A stretch of DNA of 64,000 nucleotides. Origin: Anaerolineae bacterium. GTDB lineage: Bacteria; Chloroflexota; Anaerolineae; Aggregatilineales; Aggregatilineaceae. Of the stretch, positions 4,977-10,367 are shown piece by piece (positions within the stretch are counted from its first letter, which is position 1; every line of letters begins with the position of its first letter). The notes under the pieces were generated by a model. It was not told the origin of the DNA. It worked only from the letters and a program-made list of their open reading frames with translations, and made no database searches. A program made the position numbers and the translations under genes. The stretch spans positions 153,471 through 217,470 of the forward strand of contig JAHDWP010000001.1 of NCBI GenBank assembly GCA_023382715.1, given 5' to 3'.

Positions 4977-7292
4977 TCAGATATGGTGGACGGTGCAGGC
5001 GGCGATGGCCGCCTGGCCGAGCGCCAGGCCGCCGTCGTTGGGCGGCACAAGCTGGTGAGTCAGGACGACAAATCTGGCGCGGCGCAGACGCTCAGCGGCG
5101 GCGCGCAACAGCGTAGCGTTCTGGAAGACGCCGCCGCTGAGGACGACGGTGGCGATCCCCGTCTCCTCGCGGGCCAGCAGGCAGATGTCGCGTGCGAGAT
5201 CGGCCACGCCGTTGTGGAAGCGCGCCGATAGGATGGGCACGGGCACGCCACTGCGCAGGTCTGCGAGCAGCGCGATCAGCAGCGGCCCAGGATCGAACAG
5301 ATAAGCGCCGTCCGCGCTGCGCGCAATGGTAAAGGGATACGCAGCGGTCTCGTCTGGATCGGCCTGCGCTTCCAGCCAGATGGCCGCCTGCGCCTCGTAG
5401 GTGACCTCCTGCAGCACGCCACACAGAGCGGCGGCGGCGTCGAAGAGGCGGCCCATGCTCGAGGTGAGCGGGGCGTTCAGACGCTTCTCAAGCTGCTGGC
5501 GGATGATGGCCTGCTCCTGCGGCGGCGCGGCCAGAACGGGGGGCAGGTCAGCGTCCCAGGGCAGGCCCGCGCCCCACAGATGGGCCAGGGCGGTGCGATA
5601 GGGGCGCAGCGTGGCCGCGTCCCCGCCGGGCAGCGGCACATAGCGCAGGTGGGCGAAGCGCCGGAAGTCGGCATAGCCGCCGACCAGGACTTCACCGCCC
5701 CAGATCGCCCCGTCCGGCCCCAGGCCCGTCCCGTCGAAGATGACGCCGATGGCCGGCTCGTCGGGCGGGGCCTTGTGCTCGGCCAGGCAGCTCGCCAGGT
5801 GCGCGTGATGGTGCTGCACGGCGATGCGCGTCTCCGGGCGGCGCAGGGCGTAGCGCGTGGCCAGGTAGTCGGGGTGGGCGTCGTGGGCGATGATCTGCGG
5901 CTGAACGCGAAAGAGGCGCTCCATGTGGGCGATGCTGTGCTCGTAGGAGCGCAGCGCGTCGTAGTTGGCCAGGTCGCCGATGTGCTGGCTGACGAAGGCG
6001 TGCGCGTCACGGGCCAGGCAGAAGGTGTTCTTCAGCTCTGCGCCGGTCGCCAGCAGCGGCGGAGACTCAAACGGCAACGGCAGCGGGTAGGGCGCGTAGC
6101 CGCGTGAGCGACGCAGCGGCAGCACGCCGCCCTCGGTGGCGCGCACGACCGAATCGTCGCAGCGGATGTGGATGGCCCGGTCGTGCAGCAGGAAGGCGTC
6201 GGCCAGCGGGCCGAGCCGAACCAGGGCGTCATCGTTGTCGGTGGCGATCGGCTCTTCGCTGAAGTTGCCGCTGGTCATGACCAGGGCGGGCGGGAAGCCA
6301 GGCGTCTGTTCCAGCAGCAGGTGATGCAGCGGCGTGTAGGGCAGCATGACGCCCAGCTCGCACAGGCCGGGCGCGACTTCCGGCGCAATGGGGCCGCCGG
6401 GCAGCAGCGACAGCAGGACGATGGGCCGCTCCGCGCCTTGCAGCGCACGCGCCGCCGCTTCGCTGACCGTGCACATGCGTCGCACTGTGTCCAGGTCGGG
6501 CATCATCACGGCGAAGGGCTTGGCAGCGCGGCCCTTGCGCGCGCGCAGCGCCCGCACGGCGGCGGGGTTGGTCGCGTCGCAGGCCAGGTGAAAGCCGCCC
6601 AGTCCCTTGATGGCGACGATGTGCCCGGCCCGCAGCAGGGCGCGCGCGGCGTCGAGCGGATCGGCGGGCCGGTCGGCCCAGCCGGCGGGTGCGTCGAGGG
6701 CAGGGCTGGGGCGCAGCTCCAGGCGCGGCCCGCAGACAGGGCAGGCGTTCGGCTGGGCGTGGAAGCGTCGGTTCAGCGGGTCGTCGTATTCACGCTGGCA
6801 GTCCGGGCACATGGCGAAAGGGGCCATTGTCGTCGCGGGCCGGTCGTAGGGGATGTCCTGGATGATGGTGAAGCGCGGCCCGCAGTTGGTGCAGTTGGTG
6901 AAGGGGTAGCGGTAGCGCCGGTCGGACGGGTCGCGGACTTCAGCCAGGCATTCGGGGCAGGTGGCAACATCCGGCGAGATCGGCTGGTAGGCGCCCTCTA
7001 CGGCGTGGCTGTGGCGAATCTCGAAGCGGGCAAAGCCGTTGCCGGGGATTTCCTGAGCGGACACCGACTCAATGCGCGAGAGCGGCGGCGCTTCGGCGCT
7101 GAGGGCGGCGAGGAAGGCATCCAGCGCGGCGGACGGCCCTTCGACCTCAATATCCACGCCTGCCGACGAATTGCGCACCCAGCCGCACAGGGCATGGCGC
7201 TGGGCCAGCCCGTAGACGAACGGGCGGAAGCCCACCCCCTGGACGATCCCACTGACGTGAATGCGGCGGGCCGGCGGCACAGAGGCGCTCAC
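4977..7292 (-). CDS. hypF: Carbamoyltransferase HypF
   Basis: 771 residues, full length. HypF uses carbamoyl phosphate and ATP to make the thiocarboxamide on HypE that becomes the cyanide ligands of [NiFe]-hydrogenase. The domain order is complete: acylphosphatase-like (SGIVQGVGFRPFVYGLA, about 1-95), two zinc-finger motifs (CPECLAEVRDP with NCTNCGP; CPDCQREYDDP with ACPVCGP, about 110-190), YrdC-like (GGFHLACDATNP, about 210-400) and the Kae1-like C-terminal domain (HHHAHLASCLAEH, FDGTGLGPDGAIWGGE, LSGGVFQNATLL, PPNDGGLALGQA). It starts with GTG one base after the hypB stop. Confidence 0.97.
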   Translation of the reverse strand: MSASVPPARRIHVSGIVQGVGFRPFVYGLAQRHALCGWVRNSSAGVDIEVEGPSAALDAFLAALSAEAPPLSRIESVSAQEIPGNGFARFEIRHSHAVEGAYQPISPDVATCPECLAEVRDPSDRRYRYPFTNCTNCGPRFTIIQDIPYDRPATTMAPFAMCPDCQREYDDPLNRRFHAQPNACPVCGPRLELRPSPALDAPAGWADRPADPLDAARALLRAGHIVAIKGLGGFHLACDATNPAAVRALRARKGRAAKPFAVMMPDLDTVRRMCTVSEAAARALQGAERPIVLLSLLPGGPIAPEVAPGLCELGVMLPYTPLHHLLLEQTPGFPPALVMTSGNFSEEPIATDNDDALVRLGPLADAFLLHDRAIHIRCDDSVVRATEGGVLPLRRSRGYAPYPLPLPFESPPLLATGAELKNTFCLARDAHAFVSQHIGDLANYDALRSYEHSIAHMERLFRVQPQIIAHDAHPDYLATRYALRRPETRIAVQHHHAHLASCLAEHKAPPDEPAIGVIFDGTGLGPDGAIWGGEVLVGGYADFRRFAHLRYVPLPGGDAATLRPYRTALAHLWGAGLPWDADLPPVLAAPPQEQAIIRQQLEKRLNAPLTSSMGRLFDAAAALCGVLQEVTYEAQAAIWLEAQADPDETAAYPFTIARSADGAYLFDPGPLLIALLADLRSGVPVPILSARFHNGVADLARDICLLAREETGIATVVLSGGVFQNATLLRAAAERLRRARFVVLTHQLVPPNDGGLALGQAAIAACTVHHI

Positions 7293-7293
7293 C

Positions 7294-7959
7294 TTACCCT
7301 GCTGCGCTCCGGCTGTTGAGCTGCGCGCGCAGCCAGGCGAACCAGGCGTCCAGGCCCTCGCCTGTGCGGCATGACACGGGGAAGAAGGCCACGCCGGGAT
7401 TGAGCGCCTCGACGCCCTGGCGGAAATAGTCTACGTCGAAGTCCATGTACTCCTGCAAGTCCATCTTGTTGAGCAGCAGCACGTCCGCGCCGCGAAACAT
7501 GCTGGGGTACTTGTAGGGCTTGTCGGCGCCTTCGGGCACGCTGGCGATGACTATGTTGAAGTGCACGCCGAGCTTGAAGGCCGCCGGGCAGATCAGGTTG
7601 CCCACGTTCTCGATAATCAGCAGGTCGAGCGCGCCCAGGTTCATCGAGGGCAGGGCGCGAAGCACCATGTTGGCGTCCAGATGGCACTGCCCACCCGTGT
7701 TGATCAGCGAAACGGGGAGACCCAGGGCGGCCAGCTCGCGCAGATCAATCTCGACGATGTCGCCGTCCATCACGCCGATGCGCACCTCGTCCATCAGCGC
7801 TCGCACGGTGCGCAGGATGACGCTCGTCTTGCCGCCGCCAGGCGAGGCCATGACGTTGAGCGCCAGCACGGCGGCCTGGTCAAGCTGGGCCTGAATCTGC
7901 CCGGCCAGGGCGTCGTTGGCGCTGAGGATGTTCTCGACTACGGGTATCTTTGCGGTCAT
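7294..7959 (-). CDS. hypB: Hydrogenase nickel-incorporation GTPase HypB
   Basis: SIMIBI-class GTPase that drives nickel insertion into the hydrogenase large subunit together with HypA. Motifs: P-loop ASPGGGKTS near residue 38, switch/metal site GGQCHLDANM with the conserved Cys-His pair, IENVGNLICPA, and the guanine-specificity motif NKMD. At 221 residues it is the short form: there is no N-terminal histidine-rich stretch or CxxCGC high-affinity nickel site, so it probably cannot store nickel. The gap to hypA is 25 bases and to hypF one base. Confidence 0.96.
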   Translation of the reverse strand: MTAKIPVVENILSANDALAGQIQAQLDQAAVLALNVMASPGGGKTSVILRTVRALMDEVRIGVMDGDIVEIDLRELAALGLPVSLINTGGQCHLDANMVLRALPSMNLGALDLLIIENVGNLICPAAFKLGVHFNIVIASVPEGADKPYKYPSMFRGADVLLLNKMDLQEYMDFDVDYFRQGVEALNPGVAFFPVSCRTGEGLDAWFAWLRAQLNSRSAAG

Positions 7960-7984
7960 GAGTGCTCCAATGCGATAGGCGTCT

Positions 7985-8350
7985 TTATAGGCCGGGCTGC
8001 GGCTCGGCCAGGTCTACGTCAATGCTTTCCAGAAAGAACTGCTCACCATCGGCGACGATGACTTTGCTGCTGGCGCAGGCCGGGCAGGCGTAATCGTGCT
8101 GGTTGAGCGGGAACTCGTGCGCGCAGTCCTGGCAGCGCAGCATCGCCGGGACGCGCGTGAAGCTCAGCACCGCGCCGTGCGCGATGGTCCCCTCGCTAAT
8201 CAGGTCCCAGTAGAACTGGACGGAGTCGTCCACGATGCTCGACAACTCGCCAATGACCAGGCTGACTTCCCGGATGCGCGCCGCACCCGCCCGCTCAGCG
8301 TGGCGCAGGGCGATCTGCAGAATACTTTGAGTGACTCCCAGTTCGTGCAC
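7985..8350 (-). CDS. hypA: Hydrogenase nickel-incorporation protein HypA
   Basis: 121 residues. HypA binds nickel through its N-terminal Met-His-Glu and a structural zinc through two CxxC motifs; here CQDC and CPAC near residues 80 and 96. An open frame reaches four codons further, but starting at the GTG of 8350 gives MHELGVTQSI with histidine as residue 2, required for nickel binding, and an AGGGG lies about ten bases upstream. It is the first gene of hypABFCD. A perfect inverted repeat overlaps its probable -10 box. Confidence 0.94.
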   Translation of the reverse strand: MHELGVTQSILQIALRHAERAGAARIREVSLVIGELSSIVDDSVQFYWDLISEGTIAHGAVLSFTRVPAMLRCQDCAHEFPLNQHDYACPACASSKVIVADGEQFFLESIDVDLAEPQPGL

Positions 8351-8379
8351 GGTGCGCGGCACCCCTGTTTTCCCAGACG

Positions 8380-8466: not shown

Positions 8467-8607
8467 TCAGAATCCCTGGTAAATCCACTGCGGCGCGCTG
8501 TCCGCGGTGACGATGATGACCAGGGCGATGATGACGCACAACAGCAGAGCGAAGAGGTTTTCGCGGCTGAAGATGCGCCCCAGTGCGGCGCGAACCCAGG
8601 CGATCAT
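8467..8607 (-). CDS. 46-residue single-pass membrane peptide with DltX-like C-terminus
   Basis: The ATG (8607) overlaps the stop of the acyl-AMP ligase as ATGA, with GAGG a few bases upstream, so it is very probably translated and coupled. Layout: a short amphipathic basic N-terminus (about 1-17), one hydrophobic helix (about 18-34), a short linker, and the C-terminus ending exactly in WIYQGF. DltX, a comparably tiny protein of the teichoic-acid D-alanylation operon, also has one helix and ends in a conserved F-x-Y-x-x-F motif whose tyrosine is third from last, as here. An acyl-carrier or acyl-relay role is inference. No DltB-type MBOAT, DltC or DltD gene is in the window. Confidence 0.8.
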   Translation of the reverse strand: MIAWVRAALGRIFSRENLFALLLCVIIALVIIVTADSAPQWIYQGF

Positions 8608-10367
8608 AAGCCCTCGCTGTTCTGGCGGAGCACCTGCTCGACGAATTTCTGGCGGTTGGCGGCGCGGGCGATCTTGCCGCTGGAGGTCTTCAGCAGCCAG
8701 CGGGGGCCGACCAGATGCACGTAGCGGGCGGTGGCGTCGGTGGTCTGGGCGATGCGGGTGCGGATGGCGCGGGTGATGGCGGCGTGGGCGTCTGGGTCTG
8801 CCGTGTCCACTTCGCAGATGACGGCGATATCCTCGGTGCCGAGCGCCTCGTTGGGCACGCCGAAGGCGACGGTGCGCCCCGGATGCACGCCGGACACGTC
8901 GTTGAGGGCGTTCTCGATATCCTGTGGGTAAATGTTCTTGCCGCCGACGATGATCAGGTCTTTCTGCCGCCCGGTGATGTATAACTCGCCGTCGGCCAGG
9001 TAACCGAGGTCGCCGGTGAAATACCAGCCGTCGTCCAGGGCCTCGGCGGTGGCATCGGGGCGGTGATAGTAGCCGCTGAGCATACAATTGCTGCGCAGGG
9101 CCACCTCGCCGACGTGGCGCTCTGGCAGGTCGCGGCGCTCGCCATCCACGATGCGAATCTCGGTGCGCGCGATGGGACGTCCGCAGGAGACCATCGTCAC
9201 GGTGGGGCCGTCCGTGCCGCTGGCGGGCAGGGCGTGGCGCTGCTCCATGAGCGCCCGCCGATCTACGATGTCCAGGCGGGGTGGGGCGTCGAGCGCGCTC
9301 TGGGTGACGGCGAAGGTGTTCTCGGCCATGGCGTAGCAGGTCTGCAAAGCCAGCGGGCGCAGGCCGTGCGGCGCGTAGAAGGCGGCGAACTGCTCGTGAC
9401 TGTCGTGGCGCACCGGCTCGGAGCAGTTGATGAAGGCGCGCACGCTGGAGATGTCCACCCCGTCGAGCGCGGAACGGCGCACGCGCGTCGCCAGGAAGTT
9501 GTAGGCGAAGTTGGGCAGCCAGCAGAGCGTCGCGCGGTGCTCGTGAATGGCGCGCAGCAGGATCAGCGGGTCGCGCACCCAATGGAAGGGCGACATCAGC
9601 ACCAGGGGCACCCCTTGCACGATGGGCAGGATGAACCCGGCGATGAGGCCCATGTCGTGGTAGAGCGGCAGCCAGCTCACGACCACGTCGTCCGAGCGCA
9701 GAGCGAGGGCGGCGCTGTAGGCGGCGATCTGGTTGAGCACCGCGCCGTGCGAGAGCATGACCCCCTTCTGCAGGCCGGTGCTGCCGGAAGAGTGCTGCAG
9801 GAAGGCGGTATCCTCTGGCCGCGAGGGGGCGCGTTCCAGATAGTCGCTCAGGCGACCGCCCGGCTCGAGCTGGGCGATGTTCAGGATGGCCCCCAGGGTG
9901 GGGATGCCTTCCAGGTGGGCGCGCAGAGTCGGCTCCATCTCCGGGTAGGTGATGACCGCCCTGACCTCGGACAGCGCGACAAGCTGGCGCACGCTGTCGT
10001 AGTAGCGATCCGGGTCGAGCTTGGGCGTCAGGAAAGGCATGATCGAGGGAATCGCGCCGAGCAGCATCGCCCCCCAGAACGAGTACAGGACTTCCGGGCC
10101 GTGCTGTAACACCAGAACGACCAGGTCGCCGGGCCGGACGCCGGCGCGCTCCAGCGCGTGGGCGTAGCGCGCCGCGCCCTCGAAAAAGGCGCGAGTGCTG
10201 ATCGTCTGTGTGCCATCCGGCAGGATCAGCGTGAGCGCGGTACGCTCCGGCGAATCCGCGAGCAGGTCGCGCGCGCAGTCGAGCAGGGTCGGCGGCTGGC
10301 GATCCAGGCGGACTGGCACGGTGGGCGCGGGCTGCGCGAAGGGGGATGCTGGCATAGGGCGGTGCAT
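8604..10367 (-). CDS. Fatty-acyl-AMP ligase (FAAL) family adenylating enzyme
   Basis: 587 residues, the usual size. ANL-superfamily enzyme that activates a carboxylic acid, probably a fatty acid, as acyl-adenylate for transfer to a carrier. Motifs: P-loop-like LQHSSGSTGLQKGVMLSH (190-207), WLPLYHDMGL typical of FAAL/FadD32-like proteins, CYAMAENTFA, YFTGDLGYL, GRQKDLIIVGGKNIYP, and the C-terminal catalytic lysine in KTSSGKIAR. FAALs normally hand the acyl group to an acyl-carrier protein rather than CoA; no carrier gene is adjacent. The start ATG at 10367 follows a TATAAT box at 10409-10414, which rules out starts further upstream. It forms a two-gene unit with the micropeptide at 8467. Confidence 0.9.
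   Translation of the reverse strand: MHRPMPASPFAQPAPTVPVRLDRQPPTLLDCARDLLADSPERTALTLILPDGTQTISTRAFFEGAARYAHALERAGVRPGDLVVLVLQHGPEVLYSFWGAMLLGAIPSIMPFLTPKLDPDRYYDSVRQLVALSEVRAVITYPEMEPTLRAHLEGIPTLGAILNIAQLEPGGRLSDYLERAPSRPEDTAFLQHSSGSTGLQKGVMLSHGAVLNQIAAYSAALALRSDDVVVSWLPLYHDMGLIAGFILPIVQGVPLVLMSPFHWVRDPLILLRAIHEHRATLCWLPNFAYNFLATRVRRSALDGVDISSVRAFINCSEPVRHDSHEQFAAFYAPHGLRPLALQTCYAMAENTFAVTQSALDAPPRLDIVDRRALMEQRHALPASGTDGPTVTMVSCGRPIARTEIRIVDGERRDLPERHVGEVALRSNCMLSGYYHRPDATAEALDDGWYFTGDLGYLADGELYITGRQKDLIIVGGKNIYPQDIENALNDVSGVHPGRTVAFGVPNEALGTEDIAVICEVDTADPDAHAAITRAIRTRIAQTTDATARYVHLVGPRWLLKTSSGKIARAANRQKFVEQVLRQNSEGL

Follow-up and report, generated by a model that had tools for sequence, protein, structure and literature searches.

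The fatty-acyl-AMP ligase (FAAL) and the DltX-like membrane micropeptide encoded side by side in the window, the 64,000-nucleotide stretch of an Anaerolineae genome that we analyzed, are very probably two parts of a trans-membrane acyl relay resembling the Dlt pathway of teichoic-acid D-alanylation (DltA, DltB, DltC, DltD and DltX). Our computational data strongly support a relay that works like Dlt and is not Dlt, and point to a previously undescribed five-protein machine in one class of Chloroflexota, whose probable role, comparable to that of Dlt with D-alanine, is to bring an acyl group through the membrane and attach it to the cell envelope. The initial annotation had proposed such a Dlt-like pair, and the proposal gained support from the parts found, their operon structure in other families, their co-occurrence, an MBOAT that lacks in cis the motif found on the peptide, and the folds and conserved candidate catalytic residues of the partner proteins.

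The one-helix peptide of 46 residues ending in WIYQGF and its ATGA overlap with the FAAL gene had been described beforehand, and we confirmed both the coordinates and the sequence (Table 1). The overlap suggests that translation of the micropeptide may be coupled to that of the FAAL. As read from the sequence, the peptide has a basic N-terminus (in), a hydrophobic stretch and a C-terminal tail of ~11 residues (out), the same layout as that of DltX (PMC5541007). The tail tyrosine had been placed third from last; it is actually fourth from last, Y43 of 46. The equivalence with DltX nevertheless stands, because the DltX tyrosine is also fourth from last, and the C-terminus of DltX from B. thuringiensis reads FIYNEF (PMC5541007). 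The genes hypF, hypB and hypA, which belong to hydrogenase maturation (window 4977-8362), lie downstream of the peptide and share its strand, and a hypA-like start follows the peptide in several relatives also; these genes are probably unrelated to it in function. A tie to this adjoining hydrogenase cluster was considered and rejected, since elsewhere the peptide and FAAL accompany MBOAT, SGNH and carrier genes.

Table 1. Features of the putative relay; positions prefixed C7 or C25 lie elsewhere in the window's genome, all others in the window.
Feature	Position	Strand	Basis or remark
FAAL (fatty-acyl-AMP ligase), 587 aa	8604-10367	-	Pfam AMP-binding, NCBIfam, solved structures
DltX-like membrane micropeptide, 46 aa, MIAWVRAALGRIFSRENLFALLLCVIIALVIIVTADSAPQWIYQGF	8467-8607	-	FAAL-linked, conserved C-terminus
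WIYQGF hexapeptide codons (putative C-terminal shuttle motif)	8470-8487	-	Same motif class as DltX and PatA
Tyr43, proposed acyl acceptor	codon 8479-8481	-	Analogy with acyl-Tyr motif of DltX and PatA
Single hydrophobic helix of micropeptide, ~residues 17-35	8503-8559	-	Read from sequence
ATGA overlap, FAAL stop/micropeptide start	8604-8607	-	Sequence
DltB-like MBOAT P0004, 486 aa	C7:55718-57178		Sole MBOAT found by Pfam in the genome
SGNH protein, 385 aa, GDS at 103-105, membrane-anchored	C7:57182-58339		Adjoins MBOAT
Operon-type carrier protein	C25:13259-13501		E 3.9e-31

A FAAL orthologue was present in all 18 genomes of the window's family, and in each of them the peptide follows it. The initial reading had staked itself on an intact small ORF and a conserved C-terminal motif, and both held: the ORF is disrupted in none of the 18 genomes, and the motif is kept in all of them and also in the wider class set. 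S-R-E-N and W-I-Y-Q-G-F are invariant in the family alignment, codon differences over all pairs numbered 1262, 385 and 2063 at positions 1, 2 and 3, respectively, and the DNA differences within WIYQGF-stop are all synonymous. This third-position bias, together with the synonymous-only change in the motif, is the pattern to be expected if the ORF is translated and kept by purifying selection. In the window, the frame of the peptide has no stop for a long way upstream (647-aa ORF), but we consider this long ORF a high-GC artefact, because in most relatives the frame is open for merely ~40-90 codons. Rare motif variants occur across the class (FIYQGF, WIYQNF and WIYQAF), and the tyrosine is invariant in every aligned member. 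The expectation that the next short ORF after a FAAL would end in the motif was correct for the whole family and failed outside it, where none was seen within ~1.5 kb of the FAAL in short loci, because the peptide there sits upstream of the MBOAT. Sequence searches of Pfam, NCBIfam and PDB found no relative of the peptide. The alignment to the DltX profile that had been suggested gave no DltX family match: no DltX family was among the Pfam matches of the 18 members at E up to 10, and the window's peptide (P0001) had no NCBIfam match at all. A profile of the peptide matches the C-termini of motif-bearing MBOATs weakly, and we do not claim a common origin with them.

An MBOAT with a matching phylogenetic profile, for which a search had been proposed, was found. 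Among 297 genomes of the class other than the window's, 68 had both peptide and MBOAT, one had the peptide only, none the MBOAT only and 228 neither (Fisher 5e-67), so that the MBOAT was present in 68 of the 69 peptide genomes vs. none of the 228 without peptide, and the corresponding counts for FAAL and peptide were 65, 5, 4 and 223 (both, FAAL only, peptide only, neither; p 3e-54), both p-values being descriptive only because the genomes are not independent by descent. One family (f2) contains some genomes with all three parts and others with none, which argues against co-occurrence as the mere mark of a single lineage. In a sample of 400 genomes of the phylum, the peptide was present in 34, all of this same class. 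The C-terminal F-x-Y-x-x-F was found in 0 of 50 closed operon-type MBOATs, whereas it was present in 28 of the 29 remaining MBOATs of the class, the exception having VLYGGF. These data indicate that the peptide is the source in trans of a motif that other MBOATs have in cis, the role that DltX plays for DltB.

In other families of the class the genes form an operon, the usual order being peptide, MBOAT, SGNH, often an SGNH-like lipoprotein, carrier and FAAL, with the carrier directly upstream of the FAAL. Fifty-three of 71 peptides lie <300 bp upstream of an MBOAT on the same strand, and the MBOAT often starts right after the stop of the peptide, in the same frame (...WIYQGF-stop-MALGN...). 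We also sought relatives of the MBOAT in 84,980 named genomes. The 15 best were all labelled Chloroflexota or lineages therein (Anaerolineae, Caldilineae), the cultured Leptolinea tardivitalis YMTK-2 among them; none of the 15 carries the motif, 12 have the peptide nearby and 7 have the complete cluster. Among 65 more distant matches from many phyla the motif was present in 60, and of the five without it two are cut by contig ends, the others being L257, L310 and L263. The motifless MBOAT at L310 has ligase- and carrier-like neighbors in a dlt-like plan.

Two of the distant loci are of separate note. In a Peregrinibacteria MAG (JAUVDZ010000065.1, L257:3875-5160), a 40-residue one-helix peptide ending in FIYNNF lies just before the motifless MBOAT, and this is possibly a third micropeptide-dependent lineage, its MBOAT falling outside the DltB/Chloroflexota group in the tree. 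In an Acidobacteria MAG (CADEEV010000037.1, L251:5575-8872), an MBOAT ending in FLYFQF is directly followed by an operon-type carrier and then a FAAL. Here the same feeder system occurs in a different phylum with the motif in cis, which independently ties FAAL and carrier to an MBOAT and indicates that the FAAL can do without the micropeptide.

The MBOAT of the window's genome ends in ...SWDVFVRLLGG and lacks F-x-Y-x-x-F. Its only NCBIfam match was DltB (TIGR04091, E 1.7e-66; 225 bits vs. an equivalog cut-off of 375), DltB was the only solved structure matched by its profile (6bug, 8jem; E 1e-66), and its model was nearest DltB (Z 28.9 and 28.5; next PORCN, 22.7). In a quick tree that omits the C-terminal columns, the operon MBOATs cluster together (98) and join the two DltB-type rows (SH-aLRT 99) apart from all cis-motif MBOATs; because both DltB-type rows sit on long branches and rooting was at the midpoint, we take this tree as support, not proof. 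The SGNH protein has an N-terminal hydrophobic helix in both sequence and AlphaFold model, and the model (pLDDT 90) shows an SGNH fold, whose longest alignments to solved structures were with DltD entries (275-282 residues, Z ~14.4). Its candidate catalytic residues Ser105, Asn301 and His362 are invariant, as is the D-S-F motif of the carrier in 21 sequences.

The system thus has in common with the Dlt pathway an AMP ligase, a carrier, an MBOAT without its own motif, a one-helix micropeptide with aromatic-x-Y-x-x-F and a membrane-anchored SGNH protein. It differs in that the ligase is of FAAL type instead of DltA, in that the peptide motif starts with W where that of DltX starts with F, with no family-level match to DltX, in the second SGNH-like lipoprotein that is often present, and in its restriction to one class in the phylum sample. 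A DltA-type ligase and a peptide of the DltX sequence family were both looked for and neither was found, and for that reason the system is not a member of Dlt as defined. PatA/PatB and the AlgI-type acetyltransferases share with it the MBOAT-SGNH pair and the acyl-Tyr shuttle motif, but in those systems the MBOAT carries the motif at its own C-terminus and the donor is acyl-CoA, with no carrier or micropeptide (PMC12148441), whereas the Chloroflexota system has the motif on a separate peptide, a carrier and an AMP ligase. According to a 2025 paper, MBOAT-SGNH pathways except Dlt have neither a carrier protein nor a DltX-like micropeptide (PMC12148441); the Chloroflexota system seems to have both and would be a second case besides Dlt, against that statement. 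Our searches of the open-licence literature for a FAAL or AMP ligase with an MBOAT, for FAAL/DltB in Chloroflexi and for Dlt-like systems with an MBOAT returned nothing relevant.

By homology with DltA, DltC, DltB, DltX and DltD and with PatA/PatB, we infer the following chemical steps. The FAAL, as the functional counterpart of DltA, would activate a carboxylate as acyl-AMP and load it onto the dedicated carrier encoded in its own genome. The DltB-like MBOAT would take the acyl group from the phosphopantetheine of the carrier and pass it across the membrane onto the tail tyrosine (Tyr43, in WIYQGF) of the micropeptide, which is predicted to dock on the MBOAT because the latter has no C-terminal motif of its own. 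The micropeptide would then pass the acyl group to the candidate catalytic Ser105 of the SGNH protein, and the SGNH protein would put it on an extracytoplasmic acceptor.

It is the ligase family alone that points to a fatty acid as the cargo. The window FAAL matches Pfam AMP-binding at E 4.8e-59, its best NCBIfam models are mostly of FAAL/FadD32 type, and the solved structures that it matches best (e.g., 7r7g, 3kxw and 3pbk) are those of FAALs or of FAAL-type domains. FAALs of the FadD32, FadD28 and MbtM family load carriers or synthases, not CoA. The window ligase has sequence and enzyme family in common with these FAALs of mycobacteria and polyketide systems but, unlike them, has as its partner a predicted membrane acyl-export relay, and no polyketide or non-ribosomal synthetase was seen beside the ligase in the loci examined. 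We tentatively consider, at somewhat less than an even chance, that the relay serves envelope lipidation, in which a long fatty acyl group would cross the cytoplasmic membrane esterified to the tyrosine of the 46-residue peptide and end on an extracytoplasmic polymer or glycolipid. If true, this would be a bacterial counterpart of HHAT/PORCN lipidation and the first Dlt-like route for lipids.

The same relay might instead carry another cargo, the ligase activating a short, hydroxy- or amino-acid for a polymer, which would make the system a Dlt analogue with a different small acyl group. This is a real possibility, at distinctly less than an even chance: the cargo of the best characterized MBOAT-SGNH systems is small (acetyl, D-alanyl), the ligase falls well short of the curated cut-off for each named FAAL subfamily in NCBIfam, and the carrier matches DltC models, though weakly and under cut-off. 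The fatty-acyl character of most of the ligase's best profile and structure matches argues against it, as does the absence of DltA models from its best 25 NCBIfam matches; by comparison, DltA is matched at 2e-95 by a DltA-like ligase at L309. The general amino-acid adenylation model likewise gave just 135 bits against a cut-off of 317.

We also considered whether the micropeptide might serve the MBOAT only as a structural subunit or in its assembly, with the acyl group going directly from MBOAT to SGNH protein. The invariant S-R-E-N on the cytoplasmic side is a constraint beyond the C-terminal motif, and when peptide and MBOAT were modelled by AlphaFold as one chain (G180 at L127, with the stop read as Gly as a modelling device), the MBOAT was confident and the motif unplaced (pLDDT <50). 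Both are compatible with such a role, but we find it improbable given the constancy of the tyrosine and the distribution of the motif, which is missing in precisely the MBOATs accompanied by the peptide and C-terminal in the others. Moreover, the acyl group has been shown experimentally on the motif tyrosine of PatA, the equivalent residue, and of DltX (PMC12148441).

The missing MBOAT and carrier had been predicted to lie elsewhere, and both are indeed present in the genome. In the window's genome and family the relay genes are in three places, unlinked. We found the carrier in 16 of the 18 family genomes. A general acyl carrier at C37:25441 was rejected as the dedicated one, being AcpP-like; the operon-type carrier is that on C25. 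In four family genomes (G012, G013, G015 and G016) the carrier gene adjoins a motif-bearing MBOAT, and for this reason it may be shared with that MBOAT. Ten of the 18 family genomes, and 7 of the 8 of good quality, have a motifless MBOAT (in two of the ten as a fragment at a contig end), with an SGNH gene beside it in most of the good genomes examined; it was not found in G012 (99% complete) or in several draft relatives, all of which keep FAAL and peptide. These absences, the lack of linkage, the position of the carrier and the acidobacterial MBOAT-ACP-FAAL locus could mean that FAAL-peptide and MBOAT-SGNH are separate here, the FAAL feeding a lipid or a motif-bearing MBOAT through a shared carrier and the peptide being a relic, but this is very unlikely, since a relic would not hold its hexapeptide invariant through synonymous-only DNA change, most good family genomes have the motifless MBOAT, and the same parts make up one operon in other families.

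A Dlt-like relay of this kind would be fed by a fatty-acyl ligase, in a phylum about whose cell envelope little is understood, and offers a defined five-protein set for testing acyl export via a tyrosine ester. It also suggests a way to find micropeptides that family models miss, by starting from motifless MBOATs and asking which short ORF supplies the motif.

Several minor features of the loci were also observed. The best NCBIfam match of one family carrier (P0006, L171:10248-10511) was a carrier model associated with ornithine lipids (NF052616; E 2e-11, below its cut-off), and in three family genomes viewed the carrier gene adjoins a solute-binding-protein-like gene (PF13416; L171:10248-11893, L172:2681-4327 and L174:7853-9621). 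Several paralogous SGNH-like secreted proteins, barely seen by Pfam (PF13472, E 0.012), are encoded around the peptide-MBOAT genes (L180, L190, L181, L124, L126, L136 and others). In the G245 operon the DltD-like SGNH gene is followed by one for a second, related protein (43% identity; L123:6184-7272), at the position that the SGNH-like lipoprotein has in other operons. Directly upstream of the peptide, a small gene of ~125-165 aa with a lipoprotein-like signal was present at L113:3402-3893, L132:2960-3346, L231:5535-5909 and L240:5425-5880.
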